Shown: positions 4,645 to 12,565 of the stretch, piece by piece
Layout of the letters: each line of letters opens with the position of its first letter
Position numbering within the stretch: the stretch's first letter is position 1
NCBI GenBank assembly: GCA_021732025.1
Contig: JAKFVU010000027.1
Location: 1 to 64,000 of the forward strand
Length of the DNA: 64,000 nt
Source: Candidatus Obscuribacterales bacterium
Lineage (GTDB): Bacteria > Cyanobacteriota > Vampirovibrionia > Obscuribacterales > Obscuribacteraceae
Direction: 5' to 3'
The notes under the pieces: model-generated
Databases searched by the model: none
What the model was told of the DNA's origin: nothing
The model's input: the letters and a program-made list of their open reading frames with translations, nothing else
Program-made: the position numbers and the translations under genes

Positions 4645-5583
4645 CTATATATGATTCTGTTCGAATTTTAATGATGCCAAGAGTGCATCTATCAGACCCG
4701 GAAGCGTGTGCTGCTCTGAGACAACATCAATGCGACCAAGGCATTGCTCTGCTGCAGCGGCGGTTACCGGTCCGATAGCAGCTATTTTAACTGAGGCCAG
4801 TAACTTTGCCTTCTCTTGCTGGAGTAGCGCTAAGTTCTCTTTATTATTGCCGTGCGATAAATTTGCAGATACATTCAGCTCCGGCAGCAAATCTGACTCA
4901 GGGGCCAAACCCAATCCGAGCTGCAATCCCAATTCAAGTAATTGCCCTAGATTCCTAGCGGTCTGGGCACTGGCTAGAGTGATTATGTCTACTTTATTGT
5001 CTTTAAGTAGAGTTACAAGTTCAATTGCCAATTGCTCTTCGCCATCCGGCAGGCCGCTCTCGTAAGCAATCACTTTATCAACTTGGGCGCCAGCCTTTTG
5101 TAGCTGATCGGCAATTAGCGTTCTGCCGATGTTAGTCCTGGGCCAAAGAATGCGCTGTCCACTAAGTTTCGGCTGCCCTGGAAATTCGCTAACTAGGTTT
5201 TCTGCTACATAGACAGACGGCTGAAAAGCCACAGCCAATCCTGCTTCTGTTAGGCAGTTGGTAGTAGTAGGTCCGATGCTTGCCAGTTGACATTGGCTCA
5301 AGGTGTGGGCGGGAAGGCCTAGTGCCTGCATCCTTCTCAGTGTGTATTTCACTGCATTTTGACTAGCGAAAATGATCCACTGATATTGATTTAGTTTATT
5401 GAGGGCTTGATCTAACTCACTGCAATCTGAAGGTGGCCGCACCGCTAGAAGCGCCTTTTCAATCGTAGTGGCGCCTTGGGCGGCTAGTAAAGCAGAAAAG
5501 CTATCGGCTTGCTCTTCTGCTCTGGTTATTAGTACTCTCAGGCCCTGCAATGATTTATCCGACTTAAGGGGGTGATACCACAT
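4645..5583 (-). CDS. hemD: Uroporphyrinogen-III synthase
   Basis: Closes and inverts ring D of hydroxymethylbilane to give uroporphyrinogen III. 312 residues, somewhat long for the family (usually about 250). Family features visible are the N-terminal strand GLRVLITRAEEQADSF, WIIFASQNAVKYTLRRM near residue 75, and the late ASAQTARNL and AIGPVTAAAAEQ segments of the second domain. HemD is poorly conserved, but position between hemC and hemB supports the call. The first 20 nt overlap the end of hemC, which suggests coupled translation. The extra length is a Leu/Gly-rich stretch around 215-265. Confidence 0.9.
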   Translation of the reverse strand: MWYHPLKSDKSLQGLRVLITRAEEQADSFSALLAAQGATTIEKALLAVRPPSDCSELDQALNKLNQYQWIIFASQNAVKYTLRRMQALGLPAHTLSQCQLASIGPTTTNCLTEAGLAVAFQPSVYVAENLVSEFPGQPKLSGQRILWPRTNIGRTLIADQLQKAGAQVDKVIAYESGLPDGEEQLAIELVTLLKDNKVDIITLASAQTARNLGQLLELGLQLGLGLAPESDLLPELNVSANLSHGNNKENLALLQQEKAKLLASVKIAAIGPVTAAAAEQCLGRIDVVSEQHTLPGLIDALLASLKFEQNHI

Positions 5584-6553
5584 TTGGTGTTGAGCGGCGC
5601 AGCTCTTCTAAGATTTTATCGGCCCCGGCATCTTGTATTTTCTTAGCTAGAGCTTTGCCTAGCAAATGGGCATACTCTCTTGGTCCACTAATTGAATCGC
5701 GATAAATTTCGCTGCCATCAAGAGCGGCAACGCAACCAGACAGAGTGAGCTTGCTGTTATCCTCAGTTTGCACGCGGGCCAAGGCCCCAGCAGGCACTGA
5801 GCAGCCGCCTCCAAGAATATCTAAGAATGCGCGTTCTGCTGCGATTTCATCTTTGGTCACTTTGTCATCGATGCTGCCTAGCATCTCTAAAATATCTTTG
5901 TCGTTGGCTCTACATTCTACTGCTAGAGCACCCTGGCCTACTGCTGGTGTGCAAATTTCCAAATCAAGATATTGAGTAATTCTCTCGTGCAGCTCAAGGC
6001 GCAATAGTCCGGCTGCCGCAAGAATCATGGCATCGCACTGACCTTCGTCTAATTTGCGAATACGTGTGGGAATATTGCCGCGCATATCAACGAATTTCAA
6101 ATCTTGGCGCAAAGCACTCAGTTGTGCGGCCCGTCGTCTGCTCGATGTTGCCACTGTGCTACCGGGTGCTAACTCCATAAATGAGGCCGCTTTGTTGCTG
6201 ACGAAAATGTCGCGCGCATCTTGCCGGTTCATTACACAGGCTAGAGTTAGACCTTCTGGTAAGTCTGTCGGTAAATCTTTCAAGCTATGGACAACGAAGT
6301 CAACGCGATCTTCGAGCAAGGCTTCTTCTAGTTCTTTGACGAAAACACCGCGGCCACCAAGTTCAACTATGGGGCGGTCTAAAACCTTGTCACCACCAGT
6401 GGTGATTGGGTGAACTTCGAAGTTGGCATCGGGAAAAGATTTCTTGAGAGTTTCGATGACAACATCTGTTTGCAGACGTGCTAATTTGCTCTCTCTGGTG
6501 CCAACGCGAATAGTGCTAATTTTTGAACTTTTCACAAAGGCACTCAAAACCAT
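5564..6553 (-). CDS. hemC: Porphobilinogen deaminase (hydroxymethylbilane synthase)
   Basis: Polymerises four porphobilinogens to hydroxymethylbilane. 329 residues with the full family pattern: VGTRESKLARLQTD at the N-terminus, HSLKDLPTDLP near 90, the Arg-rich ATSSRRRAAQL, and the dipyrromethane-cofactor cysteine in LGGGCSVPAGA (about Cys251). The start is either the ATG at 6553 or the adjoining GTG at 6556, which shares a base with the hemA stop codon TAG. There is no clear SD, so translation is probably coupled to hemA. The 3' end overlaps hemD by 20 nt. Confidence 0.96.
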   Translation of the reverse strand: MVLSAFVKSSKISTIRVGTRESKLARLQTDVVIETLKKSFPDANFEVHPITTGGDKVLDRPIVELGGRGVFVKELEEALLEDRVDFVVHSLKDLPTDLPEGLTLACVMNRQDARDIFVSNKAASFMELAPGSTVATSSRRRAAQLSALRQDLKFVDMRGNIPTRIRKLDEGQCDAMILAAAGLLRLELHERITQYLDLEICTPAVGQGALAVECRANDKDILEMLGSIDDKVTKDEIAAERAFLDILGGGCSVPAGALARVQTEDNSKLTLSGCVAALDGSEIYRDSISGPREYAHLLGKALAKKIQDAGADKILEELRRSTPNVVSPP

Positions 6554-6555
6554 CA

Positions 6556-8046
6556 CTAGTTTAAAATTGGACGTTGGACTGACGGCGCACTGGCCTCATG
6601 AATTTTGTCTTGTAGCTTTTCTTGGAATTTCTCTTGCGTCTTTTCTTGGAATTTGTCTTGCATCTTTTCTTGGATTTTCTCTTGCGTCACGCGATTCTTG
6701 CGCGCTTCGGCGCAAGCTGCCGATTGCTGTGATGCAAACTTCGCCATGCTGTTTGCTGACAGTGGCGATAGTGGATCAAGATTGAATAGAGTACGGAGAG
6801 CTTCTGCCTGCTGGCGCAAAATCTCATAGTCTTTAGTGGCTTTCAGTTGCACTGTGGGATGATGCAAAATCTGATTAACAATGGCTCGGCTTATAGCCTC
6901 CATGTCCTGCCCGCTATTTAGACCAGACAAGATTGTATTTTTAGCCATGTGCTCTTGTCTAATTGCTTCAATTTTTTCGCGCAGAATAGCGATTGTCGGC
7001 ACCACTAACTGTGAGCGTTCCCAGTTGTGATATTCCTCAAGAGTCTCGTAAATAATGGACTCGGCGTCGCTAATCAAGGCTTCTCTATGGGCCATGTTCT
7101 TCGCCACGATTTGGCTTAGATCATCAGCTATGTAGAGTTCAACTCCCTCAAGCTCAGCTACAGACGGATCGACATTTCTTGGAACCGAAATATCGATGAT
7201 GATTTGCTTGGGCGATTTTTCGTGACGTTGGCGCGCTAATTCATCACGCTGTAATACAAATTGGTTTGAGCCAGTGGCCACAATTACTAAATCGGCTTGA
7301 GCGGCAACAGCTGTGCGCTCTTCAAAAGTAAAGCCGGTTTTTAAGCGCTCTTTATTGCTGAGCTTGTTGCCTAAGAAGTTTTCGATACGCTCGCTATTGC
7401 GATTGAAGAGAACAATTGGTCCTTGACCCGGATCTGAAAGAAGGTGCTTTGTACAAATTTGACCCATCTTGCCGAGGCCAATCACGGCGATTGATTTGTC
7501 TTTGAGGTTGCCCAACAAATCTTTTGCCAATTCGACCGCTGCCGAGCTGACTGACACAGCCTTTTTGCCAAGAGTAGTTTCGGAGCGAACTCTTTTGCCG
7601 TTTGTGAGAGCTAGTTTAAATACTATGTCGAGTATCGGTCCGGCGGTTCCGCGTTCAAGAGCAGCCTGGTGTGAGGCTTTTACTTGCGACATGATTTGGC
7701 CTTCGCCAAGAATCATACTGTCTAAACCAGCAGCCACACGCAATAGATGCAGCACTACGTCATCTCTGAGCAGGCGGAAATTGGGCTTAAGGGCGCCATG
7801 GTCGCTAACCGACTGCACTGAACTGAAAAACAAGTCAATTTCTTTGAGACCAGCAGCGACGTCGTCGACCACTGCATACACTTCTGTGCGGTTGCAGGTT
7901 GACAAGATGGCCGCTTCTTTAATATGGGGGAAGCGTTTGAGGGCTTCTAAGGCATGGCCGATGCAAGAATCCGGAATGCAGAACTGTTCCCGGATGGCGA
8001 TGGGAGCTGAATGGTAGTTGATGCCGCTTACGACTAAGTGATTCAT
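6556..8046 (-). CDS. hemA: Glutamyl-tRNA reductase
   Basis: First enzyme of C5 tetrapyrrole synthesis: reduces glutamyl-tRNA(Glu) to glutamate-1-semialdehyde with NADPH. The catalytic cysteine is in STCNRTEVYAV (Cys51). The specificity and hinge region AAGLDSMILGEGQI, the NADPH-binding VIGLGKMGQI and the late LVIVATGSNQFV are all present, and the C-terminal dimerisation region follows. 496 residues is longer than usual (about 420-450). The extra is a repetitive Lys/Gln/Glu tail (about 453-482) and a short final segment. First gene of the hem operon. The substrate tRNA is charged by GltX (43831-45294). hemL is not in the window. Confidence 0.96.
   Translation of the reverse strand: MNHLVVSGINYHSAPIAIREQFCIPDSCIGHALEALKRFPHIKEAAILSTCNRTEVYAVVDDVAAGLKEIDLFFSSVQSVSDHGALKPNFRLLRDDVVLHLLRVAAGLDSMILGEGQIMSQVKASHQAALERGTAGPILDIVFKLALTNGKRVRSETTLGKKAVSVSSAAVELAKDLLGNLKDKSIAVIGLGKMGQICTKHLLSDPGQGPIVLFNRNSERIENFLGNKLSNKERLKTGFTFEERTAVAAQADLVIVATGSNQFVLQRDELARQRHEKSPKQIIIDISVPRNVDPSVAELEGVELYIADDLSQIVAKNMAHREALISDAESIIYETLEEYHNWERSQLVVPTIAILREKIEAIRQEHMAKNTILSGLNSGQDMEAISRAIVNQILHHPTVQLKATKDYEILRQQAEALRTLFNLDPLSPLSANSMAKFASQQSAACAEARKNRVTQEKIQEKMQDKFQEKTQEKFQEKLQDKIHEASAPSVQRPILN
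6604..6684 (-). repeat. 12/24-bp tandem repeats in the hemA 3' end
   Basis: Units of 12 bp, alternating so that a 24-bp period is the clearest, encode a four-residue period Q-(E/D)-K-x near the C-terminus of HemA. The predicted peptide is strongly charged and helical. Copies differ by single bases, with K/M/F/T/L/I variation at the fourth residue of each unit. Confidence 0.85.
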
Positions 8047-8359
8047 GTTACCTGCGCAGAGCGCTTTTCAGAAACGGAAGTTTCCCTTGACCCAGATTAT
8101 AGCGACGTTTTCGGCCAGTAGGCCCGAGTCGATAATCACAGTAAATAAAACGTATTCTCTAAAAATGGTCAAAATGACAATTCGGAAGACAATCCCATTT
8201 CCTTACTCATCCTATATTAAATCCGATTGTGAGCCGATTCATCCATCTTTTGGCTGAAGAGATTCGCCATTTTTGGGCATTTTAGATACTCAATTTCTCA
8301 CATAAACAATGTTGAATAAATCGGAATCGAATGTAGCAAGCTAATTGCTGGCTGTTTTT
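8047..8359. other. Intergenic region between hemA and the btuF-like gene
   Basis: The 313-nt gap holds the candidate hemA -10 box at 8096-8101. The rest, toward the end of the btuF-like gene, is AT-rich. I see no tRNA, no convincing hairpin with a T-tract, and no ORF with a ribosome binding site. Confidence 0.5.
8096..8101 (-). promoter_or_regulatory. Candidate -10 box for the hem operon
   Basis: A perfect TATAAT on the minus strand lies about 50 nt before the hemA ATG. No good -35 hexamer is seen 16-18 nt upstream, so the promoter would need an activator or another sigma factor, or the match is chance. Confidence 0.35.
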
Positions 8360-9301
8360 CTAACTTTTCGGCTCTGACCACTTCGCCAGCTCTTTGGTCA
8401 GCTCGGGGTGAAATACCCCTCCAAGCCAGGCCATTCCTTTCAAGACCCTCAGAGTGGGACGGGAGAGCATGTCGTTCTTTTGATCCGGCAGATAATAAAT
8501 GTGCTGCTGCCGCACTGCCTGAAGCTTGTTCCATGGAGACTGCTTGATGAAGGCCTGATTGCGCGCTTCAAAAGGCATGACAATGACGTCTGGATTGCTC
8601 AAAACTAATCGCTCAAGACTGAAGCGAGGATAGCTTGCGGCCATATCACCGGCGATGTTTGTGCCACCACAGGAGGTGATTATGTCATCGATAAAGCTTG
8701 CTTTGCCTGCTGTCATCAACGGTTGCGGCCACACGCAGTAAAAGACTTTTGGTTTGCGCTTGCTCTTTTTGACAATTTGCGCCAGTGTCTGTAGGCGGTC
8801 CTCGAATTTCTGAGCGGCGGCCTCTCCCTCTTGGTAATGGCCTGTAAGCCGCCCCAGTGCCTTAAGATTTTTACCGATATCGGTGAGTTTATTGTTGTCA
8901 ACAATTACCGTCTTCATTTTATGGTTCTTAATCTTGGCTGCCAATTCTTCTTGACCCGAAACCAGCAAGACCAAGTCTGGCTTTAGTCGGGCCAGACGCT
9001 CTAAGTTGGCCGATATGAAAGTGCCCACTTTGGCAATTCCAGTCACTTCTTTGGGATAGTCACAAAAGGAAGAAACCCCGATTATTTGCTCTCTTGCCCC
9101 AACTGAACATAGTAGTTCGGTGTTTGAGGGCGCCAAGGAGACCACTCGTGGTTTCTCTGGTGAATTGACATTGGCAAGCGGCACCGCTGAACTTTTCAGG
9201 CTTGCGGGATCTGCTATGGCCGCTAGGCAAGTGATTAAGCTAAAAAATAGTGCTGCTGAGAGCAAATGCGATCGATGGATTATTGACGGTTTTCCAGCCA
9301 T
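8360..9301 (-). CDS. Periplasmic substrate-binding protein, BtuF-like (cobalamin/iron-chelate type)
   Basis: 313 residues. An N-terminal hydrophobic signal (about 11-30, ending near LAAIADPA) precedes a periplasmic-binding domain of the BtuF/FhuD class (PF01497). Visible are PRVVSLAPSNTELLCSVGA at the start of lobe 1, VGTFISANLERLARLKPDLVL, and the second-lobe segments VFYCVWPQPLMTAGKASF and LVLSNPDVIVMPF. Such proteins hand cobalamin or a ferric chelate to an ABC importer. No permease or ATPase component is next to it, so the ligand is open; a role in B12 or iron uptake is likely. The ATG overlaps the end of the upstream ATPase gene by 22 nt. Confidence 0.82.
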   Translation of the reverse strand: MAGKPSIIHRSHLLSAALFFSLITCLAAIADPASLKSSAVPLANVNSPEKPRVVSLAPSNTELLCSVGAREQIIGVSSFCDYPKEVTGIAKVGTFISANLERLARLKPDLVLLVSGQEELAAKIKNHKMKTVIVDNNKLTDIGKNLKALGRLTGHYQEGEAAAQKFEDRLQTLAQIVKKSKRKPKVFYCVWPQPLMTAGKASFIDDIITSCGGTNIAGDMAASYPRFSLERLVLSNPDVIVMPFEARNQAFIKQSPWNKLQAVRQQHIYYLPDQKNDMLSRPTLRVLKGMAWLGGVFHPELTKELAKWSEPKS

Positions 9302-9828
9302 TTATGGGCTTCTTTTAGACGCTCTTGGTGATCGAGACTTTGGAGGGTAAGTGTGCGATCGAGCAATTGCCAATCGAACAGAGTCATTCTAACCAATCGG
9401 TCGATTTGTTTTTGGTAGTCCAAATCGGTCCAGCGAAAGCCGTCGTCAGTTGGTGGAAACATTGGCGGGATGTAAATGATGTGGGTGTAAAGCGAACTTT
9501 GCTGGCGTGCCTGCTGATAATAGCTTTCGCTGTCGTAGGTCATCGCCTGGCATATGTTCCAGCGTTGCCATAAGACCCAGGCGTCAATTGCGGAGCGGTC
9601 AGAGATAAAGCTACCGAGCTTATTTTCTTCACTAATTTGGGCTTGCAAAACCTTGGTTTTAAATAGTTCTTGGTCTGGAATTTCGCCGGGATACTGAAAA
9701 CCCATCTCTAAGCACAGCTTTCTGCCTAGTTCGGGAATGACCGGCAATGCCAGAAGCGGAGTCAGCGCTTCCACCAAGGTGGTTTTGCCGACTCCGCTTG
9801 CTCCAATGACTATTATGCGTTTGCTTAT
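9280..9828 (-). CDS. P-loop ATPase/kinase (AAA_28, NadR-like) with a non-canonical start
   Basis: The Walker A motif GASGVGKTT is encoded just upstream of the first ATG/GTG/TTG (TTG at 9777), so the gene must start earlier. Between the flotillin stop (9855-9853) and the P-loop there is no ATG, GTG or TTG. The best candidates are an ATA at 9828, with AAGAG 7 nt before it, or an ATT at 9843. Later features fit the AAA_28/NadR type: SDRSAIDAWVLW (about residue 75) and a HIIYIPPMFPPTDDG strand. About 182 residues. Small kinases of this class phosphorylate nucleosides or similar compounds; the substrate here is unknown. It overlaps the btuF-like gene by 22 nt. Confidence 0.7.
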   Translation of the reverse strand: MSKRIIVIGASGVGKTTLVEALTPLLALPVIPELGRKLCLEMGFQYPGEIPDQELFKTKVLQAQISEENKLGSFISDRSAIDAWVLWQRWNICQAMTYDSESYYQQARQQSSLYTHIIYIPPMFPPTDDGFRWTDLDYQKQIDRLVRMTLFDWQLLDRTLTLQSLDHQERLKEAHKWLENRQ

Positions 9829-9852
9829 GGTCTTACTCTTAATTGCGAATTC

Positions 9853-11436
9853 TTAGTTATTGGGATTTGCTGGTGGTTGTTGCTGCAGCGGCTTAGCTGC
9901 TGGAGCTACTGCCTGAGCAGGTTTCGCTTGATGATTGTTTTCTTCTGGTTGACCGCGCCGGCGCATTTGATCGGCTAGATCGATTCCAGTGAGACCCTTA
10001 ATCATTGTCAGACTTTGGGCGGCAACATTCAAGACGTCTCCGCTTATCTTGCTGGCGCCAGTGGTATCACCACCGGTGGAAAGCAAGGTGATCGATCCGA
10101 CCTTGGCTAGAGGAGAAGCAGCAGCTTGTACTAGATCTGGCAGCTTGTCGATAATCATCTGCATCACGGCAGCATCGTTGTACTGTTTGTAGGCTTCAGC
10201 TTTTTTCGACATGGCGTCGGCTTCGGCTTGACCTTTAGCTGCTGTCACTTGAGCTTCAGCAAGACCTTTGGCGCGGCTGGCTTCAGCGTTTGCTATACCC
10301 ATTGTGCGCACAGCATCTGCTTCGGCTACGGCTCTTAGTTTTGTCGCTTCTGCTTGACCTTGAGCTGCTAGTTTGACCGATTGTGCATCGGCTTCAGCCA
10401 ACATCGTTCGCTTGAGACCTTCTGCTTGAGTCATCAATCTAATTCTTGATTGCTCAGCTTCGGCTGGCTTTGTGATCTCGGCTTCCAGAGCCACTTGTCG
10501 CTTCATAACTTCGACTTGTTGTAGTTCTACTTCTTTTTGCGCTTCCACGATTTTTACTTTCTGCATTTCTTCAGTCAGTTTTTGTTGTGATTGCGCTTTG
10601 ACAATTTCGTACATCATGTCTGATGAGGCCTTAGTTCTAGCAACTTCAGATTGATAGGTAGCTTGGCTCACTTGGAAGTTTTTAGATGATTCAGCAACTC
10701 TGGTGTCTGCTGCCAACTTAGCTTTTGCACCTTCTTCAGCCGCCTGTGCTTGGGCAATTTGAGCATCGCGGGAAGCACTAGCTTGAGCAATTTGTGTCTC
10801 TTTGGTGGCTTCGGCTTCACCGATTGCGGCACTACGTTTAGCTTCGGCAGTTTGTTTCTTACCTAGAGCTTCGAGGTAGCCAACCGAGTCGCGGATTTCT
10901 TTGATGGTGAATGAATCTACTATCAGACCCATTTTTGCCAAGTCAGCAACCGATACTTCTTGCACTCTTGAAGCGAATGAATCGAAACTTTGAATCAGTT
11001 CTTCAACTGTCATCGTACCTAAGATAGCTCGCAAGTGGCCTACGAGAGTTTCGTGGGCGACTGTGGCAATCTCATCGTTAGTCTTGTTGAGGAAGCGCTC
11101 AGCGGCTGTGGCAATGGCTTCTTCGTCGCCACGCACTTTCACTTGTGCTACACCTTCTACGTAAATAGGGACACCATTTTTAGTGATCATTGCGGCGTTT
11201 GAGTGCACTTCAATTGTCATCACTTCGAGAGAGAGCAAATGCCTTTGGTGCATGACAGGAATAACTATTCCGCCGCCGCCTCTGAGCACCTTGATGCCTC
11301 CAGGAACAGCGCCAGTAATAATCATCGCTTCGTTGGGGCCGCATTTTTGATATACGTTGGCCAAGAAGTAGAAGATGCTTAGAATGACGACAAAAGCAAT
11401 TGCTCCTCCGCCCCAAAGCACAATATTTGGATCCAT
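9853..11436 (-). CDS. Flotillin-like SPFH-domain protein
   Basis: 527 residues, matching the flotillin class (YuaG/FloT) of membrane scaffold proteins. An N-terminal membrane hairpin (about 5-26) is followed by the SPFH/Band 7 domain (about 30-190; NEAMIITGAVPGGIKVLRGG, TKNGVPIYVEGVAQVKV). A long Ala/Glu/Lys coiled-coil follows (about 200-440), rich in AEA repeats such as AIGEAEATKE. The tail is Gln/Pro-rich. The start has a strong SD (GGAGG, 9 nt upstream). In Bacillus, flotillin works with an NfeD-family partner; here an NfeD-like gene lies just upstream on the same strand, so the pair is conserved in kind. Confidence 0.92.
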   Translation of the reverse strand: MDPNIVLWGGGAIAFVVILSIFYFLANVYQKCGPNEAMIITGAVPGGIKVLRGGGGIVIPVMHQRHLLSLEVMTIEVHSNAAMITKNGVPIYVEGVAQVKVRGDEEAIATAAERFLNKTNDEIATVAHETLVGHLRAILGTMTVEELIQSFDSFASRVQEVSVADLAKMGLIVDSFTIKEIRDSVGYLEALGKKQTAEAKRSAAIGEAEATKETQIAQASASRDAQIAQAQAAEEGAKAKLAADTRVAESSKNFQVSQATYQSEVARTKASSDMMYEIVKAQSQQKLTEEMQKVKIVEAQKEVELQQVEVMKRQVALEAEITKPAEAEQSRIRLMTQAEGLKRTMLAEADAQSVKLAAQGQAEATKLRAVAEADAVRTMGIANAEASRAKGLAEAQVTAAKGQAEADAMSKKAEAYKQYNDAAVMQMIIDKLPDLVQAAASPLAKVGSITLLSTGGDTTGASKISGDVLNVAAQSLTMIKGLTGIDLADQMRRRGQPEENNHQAKPAQAVAPAAKPLQQQPPANPNN

Positions 11437-11463
11437 CTTTGCGTTCCTCCAAAAGCCTTCGAA

Positions 11464-11484
11464 AAGCTCCCGAATTCGGAGCTT
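11464..11484 (-). promoter_or_regulatory. Inverted repeat in the flotillin leader
   Basis: AAGCTCC at 11464-11470 and GGAGCTT at 11478-11484 form a 7-bp stem with a 7-nt loop just upstream of the flotillin SD. In RNA it would be a hairpin about 35 nt before the start codon. It might tune translation or mark a processing site. It is not a good terminator because the following T-run is short. Confidence 0.35.
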
Positions 11485-11719
11485 CCTCGATGGACTTATT
11501 CCCTATATTTAGTCAAAACCGTTGTCTATCAGATGTCCTAATGACTTCCTAATAACTTTTCAATCCTATACCGCATATGGTGCCTAACAAGGGATTCCAG
11601 TTCTTTTCTTTATATTCTTGACAACTTTTTGTTCCCGATATTTAATCTGTTTATCGGTCGCCGCCTGTGGCGTCCTCGCGGCTCATTGGTTGCACTAGCG
11701 CTGTGGCTTTTTGCAGCAT

Positions 11720-12565
11720 TTAATGGCCGTCTAGTTGGCTGTCAGAAAATGGTTCTACAAGAACTACAGGACCATCGGTCTCAACAATTATCACCTTGGA
11801 CCCCCGAGAGATTTCGCTGCCGACCTTGGCTGGTCGAGCTGCAGCATTGAAGCGGGTAAGGCCGATAACATAGCTGACTTCGCCCAGTCGGCCATCCTTT
11901 ATTGGCGTGTTTACCTCAGCAATTTGTCCAATCGCCTGCTGTGAGCTGGTGAGGCTAGAGGCTGTCAGTTTGCTTGTGGCCCAACCGAGAATGGCTTTCA
12001 TCAAGTTGACTGCAACCACTCCAGCAAGAACTGCAGGTATTAGGGTGAAAGGCCCCATCCAAGGCAGGAAGGAGCGCACGGTGATGCCGGTGGCGCCAAA
12101 GAAACCAATGAAAATTGAAATGGTCATTGGGCTGAAAATGCTCAGCAGAGTGAAGTAAAGATTCTTCTGGGCGTGGCCATGATTGACTATTTGATTGGTA
12201 GCCGTGCGCCCATCGTCGTCACCGCCACCGTCGTGCGAACCACTGTGGCTGCCGCCATCGTGCGAAATGCTATTACCGCTGGCCGCGTGGTGGCCGCCGG
12301 TTAATCCGCTGTGGCCGTGGCCGAAGTGCGAGCCGCCGCCGCCATCGAGGTGGTGGATACCGTGAGCAGCCTCGATCACACCGCTGGCATGACCGCCGAC
12401 GCCACCATGACCGACACTATCGGAACCATCCGAGTGAATGGAATGTCCACTACCGTCAGAGCTGTCATGGCCAAAGTGACCCATCATCAAAGAAATGACG
12501 ATGAAGCCCCAGCCAAACACTGTGCACATCAAGTACGTTTGCCCAAGTAGGTCGAATCCTGTCAT
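11720..12565 (-). CDS. NfeD/YuaF-like membrane protein with a His/Gly/Ser-rich loop
   Basis: 281 residues: a first membrane segment (about 8-30), then a roughly 110-residue low-complexity loop dominated by His, Gly, Ser and Asp. Two further membrane segments follow (about 140-165 and 172-195), then a C-terminal beta-rich OB-fold-like domain (about 210-270; QAIGQIAEVNTPI, SRGSKVIIVETDG). The layout and position next to flotillin fit the NfeD-family partner proteins that stabilise flotillin assemblies. The His-rich loop, with many HxH and GHG patches, is not normal for the family and could bind metal ions. No strong SD is seen before the ATG. Confidence 0.7.
   Translation of the reverse strand: MTGFDLLGQTYLMCTVFGWGFIVISLMMGHFGHDSSDGSGHSIHSDGSDSVGHGGVGGHASGVIEAAHGIHHLDGGGGSHFGHGHSGLTGGHHAASGNSISHDGGSHSGSHDGGGDDDGRTATNQIVNHGHAQKNLYFTLLSIFSPMTISIFIGFFGATGITVRSFLPWMGPFTLIPAVLAGVVAVNLMKAILGWATSKLTASSLTSSQQAIGQIAEVNTPIKDGRLGEVSYVIGLTRFNAAARPAKVGSEISRGSKVIIVETDGPVVLVEPFSDSQLDGH

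Follow-up and report, generated by a model that had tools for sequence, protein, structure and literature searches.

Where does translation of a kinase begin when its P-loop is encoded ahead of every canonical start codon in its frame? This question is raised by a gene that follows a flotillin gene in a 64,000-nucleotide stretch of DNA from a Candidatus Obscuribacterales genome (hereafter the window, the whole stretch that was analysed). We searched the literature on this group and on start codons and found no publications on this kinase gene.

The kinase gene and its neighbourhood

The gene belongs to a cluster at 5564-12565 in which an upstream gene, flotillin, the kinase, a BtuF-like protein, HemA and HemC follow one another, and this order was found in most family loci long enough to contain it. 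The features on which the analysis turns are as follows.

11720 to 12565, minus strand: conserved upstream neighbour gene, which precedes flotillin in many relatives
9853 to 11436, minus strand: flotillin (SPFH), with Pfam Band_7 and Flot over cut-off; its stop codon is the TAA at 9855-9853
9841 to 9843, minus strand: ATT, a second start candidate, judged less likely; ATC in the congeners G001, G004 and G005
9836 to 9840, minus strand: AAGAG, a weak Shine-Dalgarno candidate 7 nt before the ATA (duplex energy -2.4)
9826 to 9828, minus strand: ATA, the proposed kinase start codon, put forward on the ATA or ATC of relatives and the lack of a canonical start before Walker A
9280 to 9828 (stop included), minus strand: NadR-kinase-like P-loop kinase, 182 residues counted from the ATA
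9781 to 9804, minus strand: Walker A motif GASGVGKT, lying ahead of TTG 9777, the first canonical start
8360 to 9301, minus strand: BtuF-like periplasmic binding protein (Peripla_BP_2 108.8 bits; TroA_like over cut-off)
6556 to 8046, minus strand: HemA, glutamyl-tRNA reductase, the conserved downstream neighbour (GlutR_N and others; order conserved)

The gene at 11720-12565, which we take to be NfeD-like, gave no Pfam match and carries a long stretch rich in His, Gly and Ser; the gene after HemA is presumably HemC. The flotillin ATG is preceded by a strong GGAGG at 11450-11446 (duplex energy -9.3), and the ATG of the BtuF-like gene lies inside the 3' end of the kinase gene, with a 22 nt overlap in the window. 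Two congeners, G003 and G002 (L034, L035), have about 0.8-0.9 kb between the kinase and the BtuF-like match where the window has the overlap.

On the minus strand, the frame of flotillin stays open beyond its TAA for 190 codons, up to a TAA at 9282-9280, and the first ATG, GTG or TTG within it is the TTG at 9777. The preliminary description had placed Walker A upstream of this codon, and the coordinates (9804-9781 against 9777) confirm it; re-reading the sequence likewise confirmed that the 25 codons from the flotillin TAA to TTG 9777 contain no ATG, GTG or TTG, that the flotillin and kinase frames are identical in the window, and that an AAGAG stands 7 nt ahead of the ATA at 9828 and an ATT at 9843. 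The two remaining frames contain stops ahead of Walker A and have no ATG on offer. Twenty-five codons in a row without such a start are by themselves no rarity (chance about 0.28 by simple arithmetic if 3 of the 61 sense codons are counted as starts), and the kinase and flotillin frames would agree by chance in 1 case in 3. Chance does not account for the presence of an invariant P-loop in this run (GASGVGKT in 15 of 15 aligned sequences), nor for the lack of a normal start in relatives as well.

The encoded protein matched Pfam AAA_28 (PF13521) with 61 bits against a cut-off of 27, over residues 12-163 of the 190-residue frame. Structure prediction for the 182 residues from the ATA gave a complete model (mean pLDDT 89.5) with beta strand 1 at residues 4-9, and the best match among solved structures was the kinase part of NadR (8x7f; Z 20.0, rmsd 2.2, 171 aligned; Foldseek E 1.8e-07). 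Deoxynucleoside, thymidylate and other nucleoside/nucleotide kinases also reached Z of about 16 against the model. Full NadR identity was rejected, as TIGR01526 scored 17.9 bits, far under its cut-off of 341.15, with a match limited to residues 8-60, and the chain has 182 residues. By predicted whole-chain fold, the protein is therefore described here as NadR-ribosylnicotinamide-kinase-like: it resembles the NadR kinase domain in whole-chain fold (Z 18.7-20.0 in the top four rows) and in its AAA_28 match, and differs from NadR in standing alone, in the absence of the adenylyltransferase domain and in an identity of only 14-21%. Between the window and the congener G004, the kinase gene has 54 synonymous and 24 amino-acid-changing codon differences, and it is under purifying selection.

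The start codon across relatives

The kinase was matched in 62 of 99 genomes, and in 45 of 50 from the same family. We tabulated 54 flotillin-kinase junctions, of which 53 were informative (43 from the family, 1 from the same order and 9 from the same class); G035 was tabulated but its contig ends inside the gene. Eight matched genomes were left out of the junction table: G042, where the gene is split over two contigs, and G051, G052, G054, G059, G078, G083 and G093. An ATA or ATC lies 8 to 11 codons ahead of Walker A in 10 of the 43 informative family junctions, and the other 33 have ATG, GTG or TTG 6-25 codons before it. The genome from the same order has GTG at -11, and the nine from the same class have ATG at -12 or -14. 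Since canonical starts stand close before Walker A in these other relatives, the start of the window's kinase is expected at about the same place. An ordinary ATG there, which the preliminary description had set against a rare start, was found nowhere within the genus; more distant relatives have ATG, GTG or TTG at this place, which marks the start of the protein.

The place of ATA 9828 is ATA in three congeners with separate assemblies (G001, G004 and G005), in each case with AAGAGTAAGACC ahead of it as in the window and with the AAGAG stretch identical among all four. It is ATC in the congeners G003 and G002, and ATC again in G030 and G009, both genomes of a second genus. A rare codon thus occupies the matching place in 6 of 6 genomes of the genus, window included, and in 2 of 2 of the second. 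Elsewhere in the family, G018 has an ATA preceded by AAAAGGAGTAAGCGC and G015 an ATC preceded by GAGGCAGCC, the latter displaced upstream by three codons relative to the window. The rare start first suggested at ATA 9828 is therefore upheld, as ATA or ATC, throughout the genus and in four further family members. Nine of the 53 kinases, those of the window and eight relatives, lack a canonical in-frame start upstream of the conserved core; G009 does have an in-frame ATG, but it is far away, 47 codons ahead of Walker A. A start further upstream is ruled out in G003, where a TAG in the same frame stands two codons before the ATC.

The same comparison bears on whether the window's ATA is the result of an error. 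The window's genome is a draft of 85 contigs at 84% completeness, and the preliminary description had allowed that a sequencing or assembly error might have altered an ATG. The identical ATA in three separate assemblies and the ATC in four further genomes of two genera argue against this, and because independent assemblies share the ATA we rejected error as a general cause; we give it practically no weight.

A second proposal was that read-through of the TAA, or a frameshift, yields a flotillin-kinase fusion that needs no kinase start of its own. The two genes do share a frame in the window, G003 and G018. Seven of the ten genomes with a rare start (G001, G002, G004, G005, G009, G015 and G030) have the two genes in different frames, and in G003 another stop in frame, a TAG, separates flotillin from kinase. 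With sister genomes in different frames, read-through fails as a shared mechanism, and we rejected the fusion as very improbable.

The codons between the ATA or ATC and Walker A change mainly at their third positions, which argues that they are translated. Codons -4 to -2 read Ile-Ile-Val in 8 of 8 genomes of the two genera, again with third-position changes. This bears on a start within beta strand 1, at one of the Ile codons at -4, -3 and -1 or at codon -2, or else at TTG 9777, either of which would give a shortened protein. Standard gene finders would choose such codons, namely the GTG at -2 in three congeners (G001, G004 and G005) and TTG 9777 in the window. In the remaining five genomes of these genera (the window, G002, G003, G009 and G030) codon -2 reads GTC, GTA or GTT, no Shine-Dalgarno precedes -4, -3 or -1 in the window, and a start at TTG 9777 would remove both beta strand 1 and the invariant P-loop. 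We consider an internal start quite improbable.

The ATT at 9843, named earlier as the other option, lies five codons before ATA 9828 and would add I-K-S-K-T to the N-terminus. At its place G001, G004 and G005 have ATC; the four closest genomes thus retain a near-cognate start here, and codons -12 to -5 (24 nt) are identical in all of them. In-frame stops occur at or after the matching place in G003 and G002 (TAG) and in G030 (TAA), making the ATT less likely than ATA 9828; moreover, the sequence before it gives a duplex energy of just -0.4 to -1.0, and +0.3 in G004. The ATT is thus a possible start, and an unlikely one.

Ribosome binding, phylogeny and the proposed mechanism

Returning to the ATA, the duplex energy of the AAGAG ahead of it is -2.4 kcal/mol in the window and its three ATA sisters (G001, G004 and G005). 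A fraction of 0.498 of 500 same-base shuffles of the window site is as low, and because shuffles of its own bases reach a similar energy, the window's own Shine-Dalgarno is judged weak. Clear ones precede the rare codon in G018 (-8.4), G009 (-6.4), G030 (-5.9) and G015 (-5.6). Across the ten ATA and ATC codons the mean is -4.3 kcal/mol, and random stretches of the window average -1.7; when the set is collapsed to seven genomes the mean becomes -5.2, which a fraction of 0.00015 of random seven-member draws attains. Shuffled bases give similar energies in most cases, and G018 alone stands out (0.026). A short pattern found the standard anti-Shine-Dalgarno 16S tail in 24 of 50 family genomes, including G001 and not including the window's own (G000); a longer pattern, probably badly built, found it in 0 of 50.

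We built a tree from flotillin, the kinase (from Walker A on) and HemA with 45 rows, using a quick method and with several rows gappy. On this tree the rare-start label required 3 changes compared to 9.2 for shuffled labels, indicating that it is clustered. Nine of the ten rare-start genomes fell in one clade, with G018 apart. The same clade also includes genomes with canonical starts (GTG in G032 and G039, ATG in G014), and the rare start is therefore not fixed in its clade.

As a control, we counted loci without a canonical start before the conserved core and found 9 of 53 for the kinase, 0 of 36 for HemA, 0 of 25 for flotillin and 1 of 18 for HemC (the latter in G010), the rows being related genomes and not independent trials. 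Seventeen flotillin loci (cut, or with an alignment starting late) and one kinase locus were skipped. The window's genome was also compared with G004 over 324 kb, about 7% of the genome, in which 179 non-overlapping gene pairs were conserved. In 37 of these pairs, 10 or more aligned codons preceded the first canonical start, and among the 37, only the kinase had a domain motif in the upstream stretch, as judged by eye from the N-termini. AUH starts therefore do not seem to be in wide use in this lineage.

Together, these data make initiation at the rare AUA at 9828, with kinase output presumably kept well below that of flotillin, the best explanation and very probably the correct one. The start site at AUA or AUC is well supported; we infer a throttling, dose-setting role, co-transcription with flotillin, low expression and dependence on IF3. 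The kinase message is most likely shared with that of flotillin, as only 24 nt separate the two, and flotillin itself would be initiated from its strong GGAGG and AUG. Ribosomes finishing flotillin at 9853, or binding anew at the weak AAGAG, would start the kinase 24 nt on, at an AUA that initiator tRNA would read inefficiently. The product, 182 residues long, would have the N-terminus (f)M-S-K-R-I-I-V-I-G-A-S-G-V-G-K-T... and would retain both beta strand 1 and the P-loop in full. Its poor AUA start would hold the kinase well below flotillin and would in principle make kinase output IF3-dependent, in the manner of infC and sigR. We suggest only tentatively that this is a maintained regulatory device, in which the level or activity of IF3 (initiation stringency) sets kinase dose within the conserved flotillin-kinase-BtuF-HemA cluster of one Obscuribacterales clade. 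Such a device, which we regard as somewhat doubtful, might be reflected in the swaps between AUA and AUC with no return to AUG in two genera and might have recurred separately in G018.

Relation to known rare-start systems

The kinase start is most likely a real, conserved non-canonical AUA/AUC codon that joins a known class of such starts. Few conserved non-canonical starts have been documented in bacteria; in Listeria, 6 of 2265 conserved genes are reported to have a fixed one (PMC13068326). The present case adds an enzyme gene from an uncultured relative of cyanobacteria, by comparison alone. Annotation restricted to ATG, GTG and TTG would place the start directly ahead of the P-loop or beyond it, and database entries for this genus may consequently show a shortened kinase that looks inactive. 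The interchange of AUA and AUC over two genera also offers a set of natural variants in which to study how a weak start is kept weak.

The classical example is infC, which encodes IF3 and is described as starting with ATT in E. coli and ATC in Streptomyces (PMC5472188), and with AUA in S. aureus (PMC13009471). It resembles the kinase gene in having a conserved AUH start of a full-length functional protein, and differs in encoding the autoregulating IF3 rather than a metabolic-type kinase. We surveyed 40 infC loci, of which 4 gave no motif match and about seven had long open extensions. Each of the six congeneric genomes, the window's own among them (G000-G005; L101-L106), has a TTG start preceded by GAGGTACGC, and most other rows among those listed show TTG at a like place. 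None of these six genomes thus showed an infC-like AUU circuit, so the classical loop offers no local comparison. Separately, two or three IF3_N matches were observed in G018, G040, G017, G016, G033 and G042, where most other genomes have one; these are possible extra IF3 paralogues.

Staphylococcus ccpN (AUA) and cvfC1 (AUU) are reported to have conserved non-canonical starts that lower output, and that of ccpN is kept between S. aureus and B. subtilis (PMC13009471). They share with the kinase a conserved non-canonical start codon; in contrast to the weak Shine-Dalgarno of the window's kinase, theirs is described as strong and extended, and their starts were seen by ribosome profiling whereas that of the kinase is known here by comparison. 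In S. aureus reporters, AUA is stated to give about 10% of the output of AUG, and up to 30% for ccpN in rich medium (PMC13009471). Finally, sigR of Streptomyces is described as having a GTC start repressed by IF3 (PMC5472188). Its start is GTC, not AUH, and repression by IF3 has been demonstrated for sigR where we would only expect it for the kinase; in both, a rare start sets, or for the kinase would set, the amount of one protein relative to another encoded in the same operon.
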